A stretch of DNA of 56,799 nucleotides from Lachnospiraceae bacterium (GTDB lineage Bacteria; Bacillota; Clostridia; Lachnospirales; Lachnospiraceae): positions 1 to 56,799 of the forward strand of contig JAFYCS010000033.1 in assembly GCA_017539565.1 (NCBI GenBank), given 5' to 3'. Below the pieces are notes generated by a model. The model was not told the DNA's origin and ran no database searches. It saw only the letters and a program-made list of their open reading frames with translations. Positions within the stretch are counted from its first letter, which is position 1, and each line of letters opens with the position of its first letter. The translations under genes and the position numbers were made by a program. This document shows, in pieces, positions 1-52,446 of the stretch.

Positions 1-49
1 CAGAGGACTGAAAATCCTCGTGTCACTGGTTCGATTCCGGTTCTGGGCA
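1..49 (+). tRNA. tRNA-Phe (GAA), 3' part only
   Basis: The window opens inside a tRNA gene. The anticodon arm is complete: stem GAGGA (3-7) pairs with TCCTC (15-19) around the loop CTGAAAA, giving anticodon GAA for phenylalanine. The T arm pairs ACTGG with CCGGT around TTCGATT, and the 3' acceptor strand TCTGGGC is followed by discriminator A. CCA is not encoded. The D arm and 5' acceptor strand lie upstream of the window. tRNA 3' ends are frequent integration sites, which matters for the accessory genes just downstream. Confidence 0.93.
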
Positions 50-52
50 CTT

Positions 53-77
53 AAACATCCGATTGGGTGTTTTTTTA
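53..77 (+). terminator. Intrinsic terminator after tRNA-Phe
   Basis: AAACATCC pairs with GGGTGTTT (one G-U pair) around a GATT loop and runs into a T tract. It starts four bases after the tRNA, so it most likely ends the tRNA transcript and isolates the islet that follows. Confidence 0.8.
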
Positions 78-127
78 TTTCTAAATTACACAACGTTCTC
101 CCCCAATCGCTTCGCGATCGAAATTTA

Positions 128-156
128 TTGACTTAATTCGCTGATTCCTTTAGAAT
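128..156 (+). promoter_or_regulatory. Sigma-A promoter of the RT islet
   Basis: TTGACT (128-133) and TAGAAT (151-156) are separated by 17 bases, upstream of the 160-residue gene. There is no clear terminator between that gene and the RNA/RT that follow, so this promoter could drive the whole islet. A small hairpin (ATCGC-TTC-GCGAT, about 105-117) lies just upstream. Confidence 0.6.
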
Positions 157-199
157 TATATTTGCACTGTTGTAATGATAATTTCAAAGGAGAAATATT

Positions 200-682
200 A
201 TGGGATTATTTGACAGTATAGTAAAGCTGGCAAAAAGTGTCAGCGACAGCGTAGCGGATGCCACTTCTGAAGTTTCTGCAAATACGCAGGAATATCATGA
301 AGAGACCAGGCGTCTTGATATGCAGGCTGAAGCAGACGGACGTCCTTTTGATGTAAAGTTTAATGAGATAATCGCATCAATGCCCGGATGTAACGTTGAT
401 CTTGAGGTTTCACCGGATTTTCTTGAGGCTCAGGCAGGCCGTCAGATATATGCACGTGGCGGAAACCGCTGCCCGGCTGATAATTTTACCTATGTGCTTA
501 CATATAACGGTAAACAGGTTTATATCCGTCTCTGGAAATCATACGCTTCTTATGATCATGCTGCTAACAGGGCAGTTGGGATATACTGTATGCAGATGGG
601 GATGAAAGTGCTTGACTTCTTTGATTATATGCCTAACGGCATAAACTATATGAGAGACCGAATAATGCAGGCTTTCGCATAA
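200..682 (+). CDS. Unknown 160-residue protein upstream of the RNA/reverse transcriptase pair
   Basis: I do not recognise this family. The ATG follows an AAAGGAG ribosome-binding site. The N-terminus (MGLFDSIVKLAKSVSDSV) can form an amphipathic helix, followed by a charged polar stretch to about residue 50. The remainder looks like a compact mixed alpha/beta domain with aromatic residues (YVLTYNGKQVYIRLWKSY) and a helical C-terminus. There is no signal peptide or membrane segment. The stop lies 15 bases before the structured RNA, and the gene shares an apparent promoter with it, so it may be a partner or effector of the RT. That link is inference from position only; it could also be an independent hypothetical gene. 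Confidence 0.75.
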   Translation: MGLFDSIVKLAKSVSDSVADATSEVSANTQEYHEETRRLDMQAEADGRPFDVKFNEIIASMPGCNVDLEVSPDFLEAQAGRQIYARGGNRCPADNFTYVLTYNGKQVYIRLWKSYASYDHAANRAVGIYCMQMGMKVLDFFDYMPNGINYMRDRIMQAFA

Positions 683-697
683 TAATATCTGTTAAAT

Positions 698-837
698 AAG
701 GAAAGAGAAATGTGATATATCACGCCTGCGGCGGATGCAGCGCGGCATTTAAAAAGGCCTTGCAGGCGGCCATGCCGGCGTACCATCCAGTAGAAATAAG
801 CATGCTTAATTTCTTTCAAAGCGTTTTCTCTTTCCTT
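698..837 (+). ncRNA. Candidate RT-associated structured RNA (retron/DRT-like)
   Basis: A perfect 13-bp inverted repeat, AAGGAAAGAGAAA (698-710) with TTTCTCTTTCCTT (825-837), encloses a GC-rich structured core. This resembles the a1/a2 arms of retron RNAs or the outer stem of DRT-associated RNAs. Inside are a 12-nt palindrome GTGATATATCAC (712-723); CGCCTGC (723-729) pairing with GCAGGCG (762-768); CGGCAT (743-748) able to pair with ATGCCG (772-777), which would cross the previous helix as a pseudoknot; and a hairpin at 792-814 with a CATG loop. The right arm runs into six T residues, so it could also act as a terminator with a very large loop. The RT start codon lies 17 bases beyond. Whether it is template, primer or processed RNA cannot be told from sequence. 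Confidence 0.6.
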
Positions 838-854
838 TTTTATTGTCTTTTTAT

Positions 855-2072
855 ATGGATATCATTGATGAATTATCACAAAAGGATAAATGGGAAGAAT
901 TCCTAAACTACAGGCAGAGCAGCCGGCGTATGTCGAAGGAGGAAACACAACGCTGGAGGGATTTTATTGATTCTGGAAAATTTTTCAGCGCTGCATCTTT
1001 GATATCGGAAGAACAATTCGTTCCTCCCATTCCATTAAGGATGGAGGTAAATAAGACCGGGAGCAGCAAAAAGCGAATTGTTTATTCTTATCCTGATGAT
1101 TTCAGCAGGATACTTAAATTCATCTGCTATGCTCTTTACCGGTATGACTCTTTTTTCTCAGACAACTGCTTTGCATTCCGGCCGGATCTGAGTGCCGGGG
1201 ATGCATTGCCACTTATCAATAAAACGGTAAGGGAGAGCCATGTTTACAGTCTCAAGGCCGATATCAGTGATTATTTCAATTCCATAGACACAGGAAAGCT
1301 CATAAGCCGTCTTGATTTTCTGAAGAAAGATGATCAAAGGCTTTATTCTCTATTCAATAAGATGCTTACGGCTGATAAGGCAAAAAATCCGGACGGAAGT
1401 ATTATTGAACTGAAGCGTGGTGCTATGGCAGGTATTCCTGTGGCACCATTCTTTGCAAATGTTTATCTTACTGATACAGACAGGTTCTTTGAGGGAAAGA
1501 ACCTTCTTTATATGCGTTATTCCGATGATATCCTGATCTGTGCCGACAGCAGGGAGGAGCTTGAGTCGGCAAAGGAACAACTGTTTAAAAGACTCAAGGA
1601 TGACGGACTCACCCTTAACCAAAACAAACTGAATACCTATGAGCCGGGAGAGCCTATAGAATATCTTGGATTTGCGATCTCCGAAAATTGCATTGACCTT
1701 GCAAAGATGACAAAGACCAAGCTGAAAGATAAGATCAGACGTAAAGCCCATGCCCTTCGCAGATGGTGCATCAGTAAAAAACTCCCGCCGGAGCGCGGGG
1801 CCAAAGGTTTTATCACAGCCATGAACCATAAGCTTTATGTGCGTTCAGAAGATGATGCTTTTTCCTGGAGCAGATGGTTTTTTCCGAATATCACCACGGA
1901 CAAGAGTTTAAAGGAACTTGATGAATATATGCAGCAATATGTCCGCTGGTGTGTCAGTGGCAGGCATTACAAGGGAAATTACCGTATAAGCTATGAAGAT
2001 ATGAAAAACTGGGGCTATAAAAGTCTGGTACACGAATACCATTCGGGACGTAAAACATACGGCAGACATTGA
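855..2072 (+). CDS. Stand-alone reverse transcriptase, unknown-group/DRT-like
   Basis: RNA-dependent DNA polymerase of 405 residues. Visible RT blocks are KKRIVYSYPDDFSRILKF (fingers), KADISDYFNSID with catalytic D136, GAMAGIPVAPFFANVYL (motif B'), MRYSDDILI with catalytic D224 and D225, and EYLGF (motif 7). A thumb and C-terminal region contains WSRWFFP and YRISYEDMKNWGYKSLVHEY. It lacks the intron maturase X/HNH modules, the DGR-type motif and the retron VTG motif, so it fits none of these well. A TTG at 843 is in frame but ATG 855 is preferred; neither has a clear ribosome-binding site, so translation may depend on upstream translation or RNA processing. Its neighbours suggest phage defence, but that is inference. 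The exact RT clade is not determined. Confidence 0.88.
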   Translation: MDIIDELSQKDKWEEFLNYRQSSRRMSKEETQRWRDFIDSGKFFSAASLISEEQFVPPIPLRMEVNKTGSSKKRIVYSYPDDFSRILKFICYALYRYDSFFSDNCFAFRPDLSAGDALPLINKTVRESHVYSLKADISDYFNSIDTGKLISRLDFLKKDDQRLYSLFNKMLTADKAKNPDGSIIELKRGAMAGIPVAPFFANVYLTDTDRFFEGKNLLYMRYSDDILICADSREELESAKEQLFKRLKDDGLTLNQNKLNTYEPGEPIEYLGFAISENCIDLAKMTKTKLKDKIRRKAHALRRWCISKKLPPERGAKGFITAMNHKLYVRSEDDAFSWSRWFFPNITTDKSLKELDEYMQQYVRWCVSGRHYKGNYRISYEDMKNWGYKSLVHEYHSGRKTYGRH

Positions 2073-2090
2073 AATTTCACTATTATTTCT

Positions 2091-2119
2091 TTGCATAGAA
2101 TGTGCTGATATGCTATACT
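2091..2119 (+). promoter_or_regulatory. Promoter of the paaK operon
   Basis: TTGCAT (2091-2096), 17-base spacer, then TATACT (2114-2119) preceded by TGC, an extended -10. It starts 18 bases after the RT stop and so marks the right edge of the RT islet. Confidence 0.75.
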
Positions 2120-2153
2120 TTTTACAAAATCTTTCAATATGGAGGTAAAACCG

Positions 2154-3455
2154 TTGAAGCGTTATTTTCAGGAAGAGATTGAATGTGCTTCAGAGGAAAA
2201 ACTACGGGAAATACAGAACAAAAAACTTGTGGAGCAGGTAAAGCACGTTTGGGATAATGTGCCTTATTATCGTAAGAAAATGGAGGAAAAGGGAGTCACA
2301 CCCGATGACATCAAGTCAGTGGATGATCTTCACAAGCTGCCTTTTCTCTCTAAGTATGATCTGAGGGATTCATATCCCTATGGTCTGCTGGGGGTGCCCA
2401 AAAAAGATGTGGTGCGTATCCATTCCACCAGCGGAACGACCGGTAAACGCGTGGTTGCATATTATACACAGGGTGATCTGGACCTGTGGGAAGAGTGCTG
2501 TGCAAGAGCTATTGTTGCGGCCGGCGGCAGCGAAGAAGATGTAGTTCAGGTTTCATACGGTTACGGCCTTTTTACAGGCGGACTGGGACTGCACGGCGGT
2601 TCACAGAAAGTGGGATGTATGACGGTTCCGGCATCTTCGGGAAATACTGAGCGCCAGATCATGTTCATACGCGACCTTAACGCAACAATAATCTGCTGCA
2701 CCCCTTCTTATGCGGCATATCTTGGCGAGAGTATGAAGGAGATGGGGCTTACTCCCGATGATATTCCTTTAAAGGCAGGTATTTTCGGTGCAGAAGCCTG
2801 GAGTGAGGAAATGCGCCGTGATATCCAGAATACCCTGGGCATCAAGGCATTTGATATTTACGGTCTTACCGAGCTTTCCGGTCCCGGTGTTGCATTCGAA
2901 TGCAGCGAGCAGAACGGAATGCATATCAATGAGGATCATTTTATAGCAGAGATAATCGATCCCGACACGGAGGAAGTACTTCCTGAGGGATCCCAGGGTG
3001 AGCTGGTATTTACCGCTATCGATAAGAAAGCTTTCCCCATGCTCCGTTATCGTACCCGTGATATCTGCACGCTGACCCGTGGAAAGTGCAGCTGCGGACG
3101 TACATTTATCAAGATGGCTAAGCCCAAGGGACGTACCGACGATATGCTCATCATCCGTGGTGTTAACGTATTCCCGAGCCAGATAGAGACTGTACTCCTT
3201 GAGCATGGCTATCAGGCAAATTACCAGATAATTGTCGGACGTGAGAACAATACAGATACTCTGGATGTACATGTTGAGATGACACCTGAGATGTTCACCG
3301 ACGATATCAAGGAAATCAACAAGCGTCAGGCGGATCTGGTCAAGGGGCTGCTGAGCATGCTGGGTATCAAGGCAAAGGTTACTCTTGTTGCACCCAAGAG
3401 CATAACCCGCAGCGAAGGCAAGGCTGTCAGGGTTATCGATAACAGAAAGATATAA
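2154..3455 (+). CDS. paaK: Phenylacetate-CoA ligase family protein
   Basis: AMP-forming acyl-CoA ligase that activates an aryl acetate (phenylacetate or a related aromatic acid) with ATP and CoA in the cytoplasm. The P-loop-like motif HSTSGTTGKRVVAYYT, the acidic EAWSEEM block, DIYGLTELSGPG and the C-terminal GRTDDMLIIRGVNVFP hinge are all present, and the 433-residue length is normal for PaaK. The start is placed at TTG 2154 because GGAGGT (2141-2146) lies seven bases upstream; the in-frame ATG at 2139 overlaps that site and has none of its own. The ACT-domain gene follows after 20 bases, a common PaaK pairing in Firmicutes. The true substrate cannot be read from sequence. Confidence 0.92.
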   Translation: MKRYFQEEIECASEEKLREIQNKKLVEQVKHVWDNVPYYRKKMEEKGVTPDDIKSVDDLHKLPFLSKYDLRDSYPYGLLGVPKKDVVRIHSTSGTTGKRVVAYYTQGDLDLWEECCARAIVAAGGSEEDVVQVSYGYGLFTGGLGLHGGSQKVGCMTVPASSGNTERQIMFIRDLNATIICCTPSYAAYLGESMKEMGLTPDDIPLKAGIFGAEAWSEEMRRDIQNTLGIKAFDIYGLTELSGPGVAFECSEQNGMHINEDHFIAEIIDPDTEEVLPEGSQGELVFTAIDKKAFPMLRYRTRDICTLTRGKCSCGRTFIKMAKPKGRTDDMLIIRGVNVFPSQIETVLLEHGYQANYQIIVGRENNTDTLDVHVEMTPEMFTDDIKEINKRQADLVKGLLSMLGIKAKVTLVAPKSITRSEGKAVRVIDNRKI

Positions 3456-3475
3456 GAATACAGGAGGGTTACGAT

Positions 3476-3910
3476 ATGAGTGTAAAACAGATTTCCATTT
3501 TTCTTGAGAACAAGACCGGCAGACTCGATGAAATGACGGATATACTTGGAAAGAATAACATAAATATGCGTGCCGTATCTCTGGCCGAGACGGACGGTTT
3601 CGGCATCGTAAGGATCATTGTTGATGATCCTTACAGTGCAACTACGGTGCTTAAGGACGCCGGATATATCAACAGGCTGACCAGCGTTGTTATAGTTGAG
3701 GTACCTAATACTCCGGGCGGCCTTAATAAGGTCCTTAAAGTGTTTACAGAGGCTTCTATCAATCTGGAGTACATTTATGCGCTGTCAGCAGGCAAAGAGC
3801 CTCAGAAGGCATATATGATATTCCGCGTGAGCGATCATAAGACTGCAGAAGCAGCGCTCACCCGCGCAGGTATCAGGGTCCTGACCCAGGAAGATATAAC
3901 AGAATTATAA
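3476..3910 (+). CDS. Tandem ACT-domain protein
   Basis: A 144-residue protein made of two ACT domains (about 1-70 and 71-144), each with the beta-alpha-beta-beta-alpha-beta pattern and a glycine turn (LENKTGRLDEM; VPNTPGGLNKVL). ACT domains bind amino acids or similar small ligands and regulate enzymes. A strong AGGAGG precedes the ATG. Co-transcription with paaK suggests it senses an aromatic amino acid or its product and tunes the ligase. There is no catalytic domain, so it is a free-standing regulatory subunit. The ligand is unknown. Confidence 0.88.
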   Translation: MSVKQISIFLENKTGRLDEMTDILGKNNINMRAVSLAETDGFGIVRIIVDDPYSATTVLKDAGYINRLTSVVIVEVPNTPGGLNKVLKVFTEASINLEYIYALSAGKEPQKAYMIFRVSDHKTAEAALTRAGIRVLTQEDITEL

Positions 3911-3924
3911 ATAATGAGATAGTT

Positions 3925-3970
3925 TCTGCCCGTAGATCCGGATCACCAGTGTGAGCCGGGAACGGGCAGA
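3925..3970 (+). other. Intergenic hairpin before the sirtuin gene
   Basis: TCTGCCCGT (3925-3933) pairs perfectly with ACGGGCAGA (3962-3970), and inside it CCGG (3938-3941) can pair with CCGG (3956-3959). No T tract follows, so it is not a standard terminator. It could be a leader or mRNA-stability hairpin between the ACT and sirtuin genes. Confidence 0.4.
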
Positions 3971-4007
3971 TCTGCATTTCGGTATACGGTTTATTCAGGA
4001 GGCGGGT

Positions 4008-4751
4008 ATGGAAATAGATATCAATAAACTTCAGGAGCTTATAGACGGTTCGGATAACATCGTATTTTTCGGAGGTGCAGGCGTTTCTACGGAAAGCGGC
4101 ATTAAGGATTTCCGCAGCGTAGACGGTCTGTATCATATGAAGTTTAAGTATCCTCCGGAAACCATGCTGTCACACAGTTTCTATGTTACCCACAAAGAGG
4201 AGTTCTTTGATTTTTACAAAGACAAACTGTTGGAATGTACCTGTGGAGCTGATCCTGCAAAGCCCAATGCTGCTCATCTTGCACTGGCAAAGCTTGAAGA
4301 GATCGGCAAGCTCAAGGCAGTGATCACACAGAACATCGACGGATTGCATCAGGCAGCGGGAAGTAAAACGGTATACGAACTTCACGGCAGTGTTCTCCGC
4401 AATTACTGCGAAAGCTGTGGAAAAAGTTTTGAGGCTTCATATCTGTATAAAGCCGATGGTGTTCCCAAGTGTGATAAATGCGGAGGGGATATAAAGCCAG
4501 ATGTTGTGCTGTATGAAGAAGGCCTGGATAATACGACCATGACCAACGCTATAATGGCGATATCGCAGGCAGATATGCTGATAATAGGGGGAACCAGTTT
4601 AGTGGTTTATCCTGCGGCAGGGCTTATCGATTATTACCGCGGAAAGAAGCTGGTACTTATTAATTATGATGCCACTGCACGAGACAGTGTGGCGGATTAT
4701 TCAATACATGGAAAGATAGGTGAGATATTCTCACAGTTAAAGATAGGATGA
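4008..4751 (+). CDS. NAD-dependent protein deacylase (sirtuin)
   Basis: A canonical class-II/III sirtuin of 247 residues that removes acyl groups from lysines using NAD+. It has the NAD loop GGAGVSTESGIKDFRS, TQNIDGLHQAAG, the catalytic histidine H126 in ELHGSV, four zinc cysteines (C134, C137, C155, C158), and GTSLVVYP. ATG 4008 is chosen because AGGAGG lies just upstream; an in-frame upstream ATG at 3951 has no such site. The stop overlaps the next start (ATGA), so it is co-translated with the ATP-grasp gene. A second, degenerate copy with the same histidine and cysteine numbering lies at 51709-52446. Confidence 0.93.
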   Translation: MEIDINKLQELIDGSDNIVFFGGAGVSTESGIKDFRSVDGLYHMKFKYPPETMLSHSFYVTHKEEFFDFYKDKLLECTCGADPAKPNAAHLALAKLEEIGKLKAVITQNIDGLHQAAGSKTVYELHGSVLRNYCESCGKSFEASYLYKADGVPKCDKCGGDIKPDVVLYEEGLDNTTMTNAIMAISQADMLIIGGTSLVVYPAAGLIDYYRGKKLVLINYDATARDSVADYSIHGKIGEIFSQLKIG

Positions 4752-5629
4752 AGGGTTGGTTAGTAGTTAATCATTTCGTACAGAGTGATAAATTTGAGGA
4801 GCTGTTCAATATGCTTGAGGAAGCAGCAGCTCAGTTTGGTGTGCATCTGACACGTATGACCAATTCATCGACATGGCTCAGACTGGCACGCTGCGGATAT
4901 GCACTCAGGGATAAGCCTGATTTTGTTTTGTTCTGGGATAAGGACATCCGCCTGGCATACGAGTTGGAAAGACAGGGGCTCAGACTGTTTAACCCGGCTC
5001 AGGCCATAGGCTTTTGCGATGACAAGACCCTTACCTGGATAAGGTGTTCCCAGACCGGACTCAGGCAGCCGTTCAGTATCATTTCACCCAAGAAGTTTCA
5101 TAATGATGGTCTTGTGGATGATGATCTCTTTACGGTTATAAAAGACAGGGTGGGTTATCCCTGTGTCCTGAAGGAGGCATTCGGTTCTTTTGGGCAGCAG
5201 GTAAGACTTGCAGAAGATGAGGAAGAGCTGCGTATGCTGATAAGGGAATGCGGAGACAGGCCTTATCTTATACAGGAATATATTTCATCTTCTGAAGGCA
5301 GGGATCTGCGTGTTCAGGTCGTAGGAGGCAGAGTTGTGGCAGCGATGCGCCGTGAGAACAAAGAGGATTTCCGTGCAAATCTTACAAACGGCGGCCACGC
5401 TACAGACTATACCGATAAGCTTAGTGAAGAACAGAAAAACATGGCCATCGAAGCATGCAGGATACTGGGGTTAGACTTTGCCGGTGTGGATATACTTTTC
5501 GGCTGGGATGAAGAACCGGTGTTGTGCGAGGTTAATTCAAATGCTCATTTTAAGAACCTTTTTGATTGCACCGGTGTAAATGTAGCAGATGAGATCATGG
5601 CTCATATAGTAAAAACGATCAGAGGATAG
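4748..5629 (+). CDS. RimK-like ATP-grasp ligase (first copy)
   Basis: A 293-residue ATP-grasp enzyme expected to join an amino acid or similar group to a carboxylate via an acyl-phosphate. The N-terminal pre-ATP-grasp domain covers about 1-95. The ATP-binding region has YPCVLKEAFGSFGQQV, the acidic loop LIQEYISSSEGRDLRVQVVG, and the metal-binding end FAGVDILF...LCEVNSNAHF. These are shared with RimK and lysine-biosynthesis LysX-type ligases. It overlaps the sirtuin stop by four bases and is followed 14 bases later by an esterase. The substrate is unknown. Only modest similarity is visible to the second copy at 6502-7320, so the two are not a recent duplication. Confidence 0.87.
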   Translation: MKGWLVVNHFVQSDKFEELFNMLEEAAAQFGVHLTRMTNSSTWLRLARCGYALRDKPDFVLFWDKDIRLAYELERQGLRLFNPAQAIGFCDDKTLTWIRCSQTGLRQPFSIISPKKFHNDGLVDDDLFTVIKDRVGYPCVLKEAFGSFGQQVRLAEDEEELRMLIRECGDRPYLIQEYISSSEGRDLRVQVVGGRVVAAMRRENKEDFRANLTNGGHATDYTDKLSEEQKNMAIEACRILGLDFAGVDILFGWDEEPVLCEVNSNAHFKNLFDCTGVNVADEIMAHIVKTIRG

Positions 5630-51669: not shown

Positions 51670-51708
51670 AAAGTCAGGGCTATGAGGGGGCCCGGAACGG
51701 AGGGGAGC

Positions 51709-52446
51709 ATGGCTGATCAGAGCGAATTAATCAGTAAAGTTAAAGAGATGATAGAAGAGTCTTCACGCATAGTTGTAATGTTAGGTGTGGGGGCTGTAAT
51801 AGAAAGCGGCGGAGAAAATCTATGGTCATCGCGTGAGTGCTACCGTATAGAAGATATCTATCATAAATCACCTGATGAGATGATGAGCGTAGGTTATTAC
51901 AGTGCACGAAGAGATAAATTCTTTGATTTTTACAAGCGCGAGATCATCGGCGTAGATCTTAAGCCGGCCGGATTATATGATGACCTTAAGAGGCTGCAGG
52001 CACGTGGGAAGATACATAAGATAATCACCCAGAGCTATTACGATCTGCATAATGTAGCAGGACTTGAAGATGTCGTGGAGCTGCATGGAAATATAAGACG
52101 TAATCATTGCAGTGAATGCGGCAAGGAGTTTCCGGTAGAGTATATCAAAGCTGCCAAAGGGGTGCCGCTGTGTGACGAATGCAAATCGGCAATACGTCCC
52201 GGTGTACTGCTTTTTGGAGAGACCATACATAACGATTTGATGACAGAGGCGGTAAACGCCTGTGAAGAGGCAGACCTGATACTTGTACTTGGTACAAATA
52301 TGTATGACAATATGGTCAAGTTCTGTACGGAAGATTACAAGAGTGACCGTGTGGTACTGATAACGAAGGAAGAACACTTTACCGACCGTTATGCGGATAT
52401 AGTGATACATGGTCGTGTAAGTGATATACTTCCGCAGGTTATGTGA
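51709..52446 (+). CDS. Degenerate sirtuin paralogue (probable pseudo-enzyme)
   Basis: A 245-residue Sir2-fold protein. The zinc cysteines (C134, C137, C155, C158) and the histidine H126 in ELHGNI are at exactly the same residue numbers as in the sirtuin at 4008. The NAD-binding elements are changed: GGAGVSTESGIKDFRS becomes LGVGAVIESGGENLWSS, TQNIDGLH becomes TQSYYDLH, and GTS becomes GTN. Loss of the conserved Asn, Asp and Arg makes ordinary deacylation unlikely. The reading frame is intact, so it is probably maintained for another role, such as ligand or protein binding. ATG 51709 follows GGAGGGG; an upstream in-frame ATG (51682) is weaker. Confidence 0.87.
   Translation: MADQSELISKVKEMIEESSRIVVMLGVGAVIESGGENLWSSRECYRIEDIYHKSPDEMMSVGYYSARRDKFFDFYKREIIGVDLKPAGLYDDLKRLQARGKIHKIITQSYYDLHNVAGLEDVVELHGNIRRNHCSECGKEFPVEYIKAAKGVPLCDECKSAIRPGVLLFGETIHNDLMTEAVNACEEADLILVLGTNMYDNMVKFCTEDYKSDRVVLITKEEHFTDRYADIVIHGRVSDILPQVM

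Follow-up and report, generated by a model that had tools for sequence, protein, structure and literature searches.

The reverse transcriptase (RT) gene near the start of the Lachnospiraceae contig JAFYCS010000033.1 is part of a unit of three components: an RT of class UG26, the noncoding RNA RT-5 and, at three quarters of the assessable loci, a gene for a small partner protein. Comparison of loci across genomes shows that the three occur together as one unit. The window referred to below is the whole stretch of DNA analysed, 56,799 nt of this contig. The RT class (UG26), the RNA motif (RT-5) and sister clades of the partner (RTasCOG2852) are already in public libraries; new here is that these three catalogued items are tied into one unit, with an architecture for the RNA and a wider family for the partner. 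The initial annotation of the window had proposed an undescribed system, which holds for the assembly of the unit but not for UG26, RT-5 or RTasCOG2852. In the literature searched, outside of which the likely source papers for UG26 and RT-5 lie (reportedly Mestre 2022 and Weinberg 2017), no functional study of UG26 was found. The same search returned nothing on the RT-5 RNA or on DRT11-14, and no paper pairing COG2852 with a reverse transcriptase.

All components of the unit lie on the forward strand of the window. The 160-residue partner is encoded at 200-682 with AAAGGAG in front of it, the RT-5 RNA, extended to its closing stem P1, occupies 698-837, and the 405-residue RT is encoded at 855-2072, with the catalytic YSDD at 1518-1529 (residues 222-225). 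The ATG of the RT at 855 is 17 nt 3' of the inverted repeat that closes the RNA. A sigma-70-type promoter is predicted at 128-156 (+ strand) by its match to the consensus at 10/12 positions (-35 TTGACT, -10 TAGAAT, 17-nt spacer). With nine promoter-like sites in 50-2300 and 5.6 ± 2.4 in shuffled sequence, this site is plausible, not special, and it would probably drive the whole partner-RNA-RT unit. The promoter, the 160-residue gene and an RT with intact catalytic aspartates starting 17 nt after the repeat had all been recognized in the initial annotation, and each was recovered here. For both proteins dN/dS is low, at 0.07 in the case of the partner (window vs L002 and L004) and 0.055 in that of the RT (window vs L002, first 390 codons), with synonymous sites almost saturated. 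No Shine-Dalgarno sequence is evident before the RT start (836-857), and the U-rich tail of the RNA reaches almost to the start codon, so that the RT may be translated inefficiently or in a manner coupled to the RNA. The start of the contig (1-49) is inside a tRNA gene directly upstream of the unit (Rfam tRNA, 32 bits, 5' end cut), with a Phe-type anticodon GAA by eye.

By profile and phylogeny, the RT belongs to UG26, an "unknown group" RT class. The PADLOC model RT_UG26 (group DRT) matches it with an E-value of 1.9e-150 over model positions 1-397 of 398, and the RT is a full-length member in the same tree group that shows no difference from other UG26 RTs. Among the best 25 of 83 families, the next PADLOC models are a generic RT (2.1e-35), UG17 (1.7e-30) and UG27 (6e-28), and the Drt9 model (2.1e-25) ranks below a Cas1-RT model. 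The NCBIfam models Drt2, Drt3a, Drt3b, Drt4 and Drt5 scored far under their cut-offs. In a 33-row RT tree, 17 UG26 rows form one group (support 91/98, 90% of bootstraps), and UG26 with three UG26-like rows is split from group II, two phage RTs, UG17 and Drt2 (100/99), joining neither UG17 nor Drt2. This tree contains no rows of Drt9, DGR, Abi or named retrons; no Drt9 rows were found in 176 genomes or the controls, and DGRs were considered through profile scans only. The similarity of the RT to the profiles of UG17 and Drt9 carries little weight, as these profiles also pick up two phage RTs that fall on the group II branch (UG17 at 3.6e-47 and 4.1e-38).

The initial annotation had also set this RT apart from intron and retron enzymes, and this separation is upheld, for retrons by a single retron model and the VTG motif. 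Group II intron identity was rejected, since TIGR04416 gives 109 bits against a cut-off of 300, an Rfam scan of 1-5000 returned no intron RNA and the tree splits the RT from group II. Retron identity, in which the RNA would be an msr-msd and the RT would make branched RNA-DNA, is very improbable. An RT, an upstream structured RNA and an accessory gene do occur together as in retrons and a retron model is weakly matched, but that model (St85) reaches 54.8 bits where 235 are required, the RNA belongs to RT-5 and UG26 surpasses every other PADLOC model by more than 100 orders of magnitude (best 25 of 83 families). The VTG motif is a mark of retron RTs, and none was found in the window RT.

The RNA of the window is RT-5 (RF03026) by its match to the Rfam model at 720-828 (75.9 bits, cut-off 45.7, E 3.3e-14, model positions 1-104 of 104). 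A perfect 13-bp inverted repeat at 698-710 and 825-837, which spans 140 nt and forms stem P1, encloses it as had been described from the letters, and the fold of 683-854 reaches -54.1 kcal/mol vs -39.7 ± 3.8 in shuffles, with 0/200 as good. For covariation analysis, 38 RNAs were aligned with MAFFT and not fitted to the structure; one of 39 was dropped and RNAs found later were left out. In these 38 RNAs, the 42 named pairs are paired in 89.2% of cells, as compared to 71.8 ± 0.7 in shuffles and 42-51% when the structure model is slid along. The window sequence, the match to Rfam and an RNAalifold run over these same aligned RNAs all went into the model, which gives it an advantage over its slid versions. 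Changes on both sides were found in 36/42 pairs vs 28.5 ± 2.0 in shuffles.

One helix is a 6-bp pseudoknot (724-767), in which GCCTGC at 724-729 would pair with GCAGGC at 762-767 in the loop of P4. It is paired in 100% of cells in the 38 sequences, with changes on both sides in 6/6 pairs, for example GCCTGC/GCAGGC and ACCCAC/GTGGGT. Hairpin P2 (712-723) has two-sided changes in 4/4 pairs and 96.9% of cells paired, with gaps at two pairs in 11 sequences. P3 (733-736/785-788 and 740-747/773-781), capped by P4 (756-759/768-771), is placed at 733-788 by RNAalifold and covariation; RNAalifold alone recovered only P3, with 12 pairs. Hairpin P5 (792-814) has two-sided changes in 5/5 pairs and only 68.4% of cells paired, and appears less certain than the other helices. 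Between P5 and P1 lies a conserved segment, TTCAAAGCGT (815-824), which is unpaired in the model and is a candidate template. P1 itself is 77.9% paired in the MAFFT register. When the strands of P1 are taken from the same locus, they pair with a mean of -20.5 kcal/mol, as compared to -13.5 ± 0.6 when strands are swapped between loci (the lowest of 10000 permutations was -16.4). The strand of the own locus is best or tied in 11/38 rows, the strands of near relatives being interchangeable; L063, L066, L042 and L008 are exceptions with 7 to 24 better swaps each. The match to RF03026 as printed contains neither the pseudoknot nor P1, whereas both are supported in the window RNA and its relatives as covarying RT-5 helices, and they are new here.

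The position of P1 would also suit an RNA that is mainly a cis-acting leader, in which P1 and the T run would regulate RT expression as a terminator or attenuator, the RT itself having some other template or no template at all. TTTTTT directly follows the 3' strand of P1, and the RT starts 17 nt on without an evident Shine-Dalgarno sequence. Such a leader would hardly require a pseudoknot that is kept in 38/38 aligned sequences, and at one locus (L053) the RNA is upstream of the partner gene and not directly before the RT, which makes a leader role unlikely. A terminator scan did not list P1, and its 8-nt loop limit excludes P1 beforehand.

The linkage of the RNA to the RT was examined in two surveys. 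The first covered 98 genomes including the window's own, 35 of them from its genus, and found RT-5 in 18, of which 17 are among the 35. At 17 of the 18 RT-5 hits the RNA adjoins the RT, and the contig of the 18th ends after the RNA. In 397 genomes of the family, the UG26 profile has matches in 94 at 1e-30, and a score gap from 266 to 141 bits separates 39 UG26-type loci in 37 genomes from other RTs, which are group II by score and by the six that were placed in the tree. RT-5 was found at 35 of these 39 loci, at 32 over the Rfam cut-off and at three under it (G372, 35.0 bits; G132, 41.7 bits; G403, 33.0 bits). The UG26-type loci without RT-5 are one on a cut contig (G160) and three with distant RTs (L138-L140), which are the outgroup to the other tree rows with a branch support of 99/99. 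L138 (G264:C60) has a frame of 1281 aa at 1626-5468 with Radical_SAM_N2 and Radical_SAM (Pfam) and a UG26-like RT at its end; it is a fusion or two in-frame genes, without RT-5 and without the partner. L139 and L140 are RT-5-less UG26-like RTs, each beside an ABC exporter-like gene of ~711 aa (by eye) on opposite sides, which is possibly a different partner.

Across the phylum, two of 398 genomes match UG26 at 1e-55; one is the genome of the window and the other belongs to its family. Three named relatives are Lachnospiraceae MAGs. Among the genomes sampled, it is only in this family that the unit is common. Strict confinement to this family is doubtful, because UG26 RTs classed by myRT have been reported in marine cold-seep viruses, with no functional study of them in the available portion of that report (PMC10504277). 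Pattern scans of viral contigs, able to find close relatives only, found none; given the cold-seep report, phage carriage could nonetheless occur. Against phage records the RT has 29 matches, all below 60% identity, and against plasmid records at least 5000, all below 60% identity among those listed.

The partner gene was present at 36/48 assessable RT-5 loci of two surveys and absent at 12/48. The union of both surveys has 54 loci, with the partner present at 36, absent at 15 and not assessable at 3 (G005, G132 and G160), and the tally of 48 is this union without the non-assessable loci and without three loci lacking RT-5. L004 is a further locus outside the 54. L015/L032, a locus with the RNA but no RT at a contig end, was left out of the RNA alignment and the RT tree, a length limit removed L144 from the tree, and L064, L067 and L058 are duplicates. 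The usual gene order is partner, RNA, RT; L053 has the RNA (751-871), then the partner (909-1472), then the RT. In the 397 family genomes the partner profile has 29 matches, of which 27 are inside UG26 loci; of the other two, that of G160, a UG26 genome, is at the edge of a contig, and that of G190 has no RT nearby. Conservation of the RT, the structured RNA and the 160-residue gene as a unit, as proposed in the initial annotation, is thus borne out (RT-5 at 35/39 and partner at 36/48 loci), and the opposite pattern, RT relatives consistently without the RNA and the partner, is not what was found.

The history of the partner was traced on a 52-row RT tree (partner at 35 rows, none at 14, not assessable at 3). 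The partner labels change 10 times on this tree vs 14.6 in shuffles, with 0/500 as low. The simplest reading is that the partner is ancient in the unit and was then lost several times; near-copies also lower the change count. Partner and RT distances are correlated over 30 loci (r 0.88, 0/5000 permutations), and r is 0.52 among the 348 pairs with an RT distance above 0.5.

The partner has an N-terminal amphipathic segment, MGLFDSIVKLAKSVSDSV, a linker and a C-terminal domain at about residues 45-160 without an ExK motif. The window's partner has no Pfam, PADLOC or NCBIfam match at E ≤1 and no PHROGs match at 0.1, and the PADLOC RTasCOG2852 model does not match it at E up to 1. A profile built from 12 starting loci and iterated found the partner in 31/46 loci, including the window and RTasCOG2852-positive rows, and among further loci in 6/9 with an RT; a seventh match, L147, has no RT nearby. 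The RTasCOG2852 model matches 12/29 members of this family. By hhalign, window-type partners align to intermediate partners at E 1.9e-15 and the intermediates to COG2852-type partners at 2.4e-12, whereas the direct comparison of window-type with COG2852-type partners gives only 4.5e-4 (probability 33%). By these profile links the window partner joins the RTasCOG2852 family via intermediates, in the same place in the locus. The initial statement that it resembles no known effector is right as to direct library matches and has to be amended as to this family. The name RTasCOG2852 refers to COG2852, endonucleases of the very-short-patch-repair type. RTasCOG2852 proteins have VVEL as the strand-3 motif and a GWW insert, whereas the window partner has YIRLW and no GWW insert.

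An amphipathic N-terminal helix as a trait of the whole family was rejected; it reached p <0.05 in 12 of the 29 partners tested (mean z 1.5) and stands out clearly in no clade but that of the window. Of the 31 partners, L047 and L060 did not enter this test or the partner alignment. Both are unusual, L047 with a zinc-ribbon-like start and L060 as a 371-aa form. In L147 (G190:C3), a partner-like domain (E 3.3e-9) is part of a zinc-ribbon-like protein, and the surrounding 10 kb contain no RT; the partner domain may thus exist outside the system.

To model the fold, AlphaFold2 was run on the C-terminal 116 residues with four close sequences (pLDDT 80.8). The predicted order of helix-strand-(helix)-strand-strand-helix-strand-helix fits the alpha-beta-beta-beta-alpha-beta core of PD-(D/E)XK proteins. 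Against a library of viral models, the best match is an unnamed protein at E 2.4e-3, with none at 0.001 among the matches listed, and 9/50 listed matches have nuclease-type names (five VRR-NUC, two restriction enzymes, one nuclease and one DUF2726). A PDB search gave no convincing match, the best being an unrelated enzyme (E 0.049), a splicing endonuclease (0.11) and a VRR-NUC chain (0.5), and Foldseek with the full-length model gave nothing useful. The pooled partner profile aligns to DUF2726 at E 0.0012 in hhalign, with two decoys at 0.04 and 0.38; DUF559 (0.0078) was rejected as the nearest nuclease family. Profiles of single partner subfamilies reach 0.029-0.19, not clear of decoys at 0.049-0.8. 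The catalytic [ED]xK at strand 3 is found in 0/31 partners, with YIRLW in the window and VVELL-type motifs in others. The C-terminal domain is perhaps a PD-(D/E)XK-like fold that has lost its catalytic residues and with them catalysis, the evidence for the fold being weak.

The surroundings of the unit bear on whether it could have been domesticated for a non-defence function in this bacterial family. It is common in the genus (17/35 genomes), has housekeeping genes around it and was in part inherited at the same site, with three genes (by eye a ligase, an ACT and a SIR2-like gene) that likewise follow it in four genomes, and a profile scan of the 10 proteins neighbouring the window unit matched no defence model. 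These points are set against patchy presence, flanks that differ at most other loci inspected and repeated gain or loss of the partner on the RT tree, the pattern of a dispensable, exchanged cassette, and domestication is accordingly judged an improbable account. Larger ORFs beyond the neighbours of the unit resemble housekeeping genes by eye, and two SIR2/CobB-like ORFs (by eye) are at 3951-4751 and 51682-52446. A comparison with empty sites at the downstream ligase was tried and abandoned, as relatives have other upstream genes there and no clean empty site (19/29 loci).

The preferred reading, held with moderate confidence, is that the UG26 unit is an RNA-templated anti-phage ribonucleoprotein similar to DRT9 and DRT10; defence, cDNA and template are inferred. 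The RT class and the patchy distribution point to a role that is probably anti-phage. The RT and the RT-5 RNA would assemble into a ribonucleoprotein; P1 and the pseudoknot would hold the RNA, which would serve as scaffold and template, as in DRT2, DRT3a, DRT9 and DRT10. From a short unpaired stretch of this RNA the RT would synthesize repetitive cDNA, and it may itself provide the primer. The partner, with a putative catalytically dead nuclease-like fold and, in the window clade, an amphipathic start, may bind to the product or to the complex, serving as a sensor, a silencer or a membrane-active effector. Upon infection, synthesis of the cDNA would then cause the infected cell to stop growing or to die.

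In the sections available of the reports on Class 2 DRTs, those studied so far use a cis-encoded ncRNA as template for tandem-repeat cDNA (PMC13174585), and in DRT9 and DRT10 the RT itself serves as the primer (PMC12483538, PMC12632851). A cis ncRNA conserved with the RT is likewise found for UG26 (35/39), whose RT does not join UG17 or Drt2, and because of this conserved cis RNA a DRT9- or DRT10-like logic is the best guess. As far as those sections describe it, DRT10 (UG17, ncRNA and a SLATT protein) has in common with the window unit a cis ncRNA, a small partner gene and the three-part layout. After UG26, the DRT model that best matches the window RT is UG17, yet it is another RT class and not joined in the tree, and the window partner has no SLATT match in Pfam. 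DRT9 (UG28 and ncRNA) has in common an RT and an ncRNA, with weak RT similarity (E 2.1e-25); UG26, in contrast, has no invariant C-terminal tyrosines, and no poly-U template was identified in its RNA. The tail motif GYxSLVHEYY is common in UG26 RTs and its tyrosines vary (WW in L024, L025, L028 and L029), so that a C-terminal tyrosine as universal primer was rejected and protein priming would have no invariant Tyr candidate in that motif.

By position after P5, 815-824 is the best candidate for the template; in the available text on DRT10, the template is just after a stable stem-loop and has an A-B-A' pattern (PMC12632851, PMC12483538). Repeats flanking 815-824 score 3.39 vs 2.83 ± 0.15 in dinucleotide shuffles (0/500 as high). 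The A-B-A' pattern is not above a between-locus permutation (121/1000), so that a shared T-rich motif may explain the flanking repeats and a repeat template like that of DRT10 is no more than putative here. A bolder and doubtful form of the preferred reading is that UG26 with RT-5 is a telomerase-like repeat writer, in which P5 and the pseudoknot would bound a short template between P5 and P1. Putative realignment repeats are TTTC-AAAGCGT-TTTC in the window, CTTT-AATG-CTTT in L039 and ATTT-AAGG-ATTT in L054.

With the unit assembled, UG26, an RT class to which no function is assigned, becomes accessible to a specific test. If RNA-templated repeat synthesis is true of UG26, the comparison of DRTs with telomerase would extend to another class with a different partner. 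Should the unit be a repeat writer, each lineage would make its own tandem-repeat DNA, and the partner, as a catalytically dead nuclease fold, would read or bind this DNA and determine the fate of the cell.
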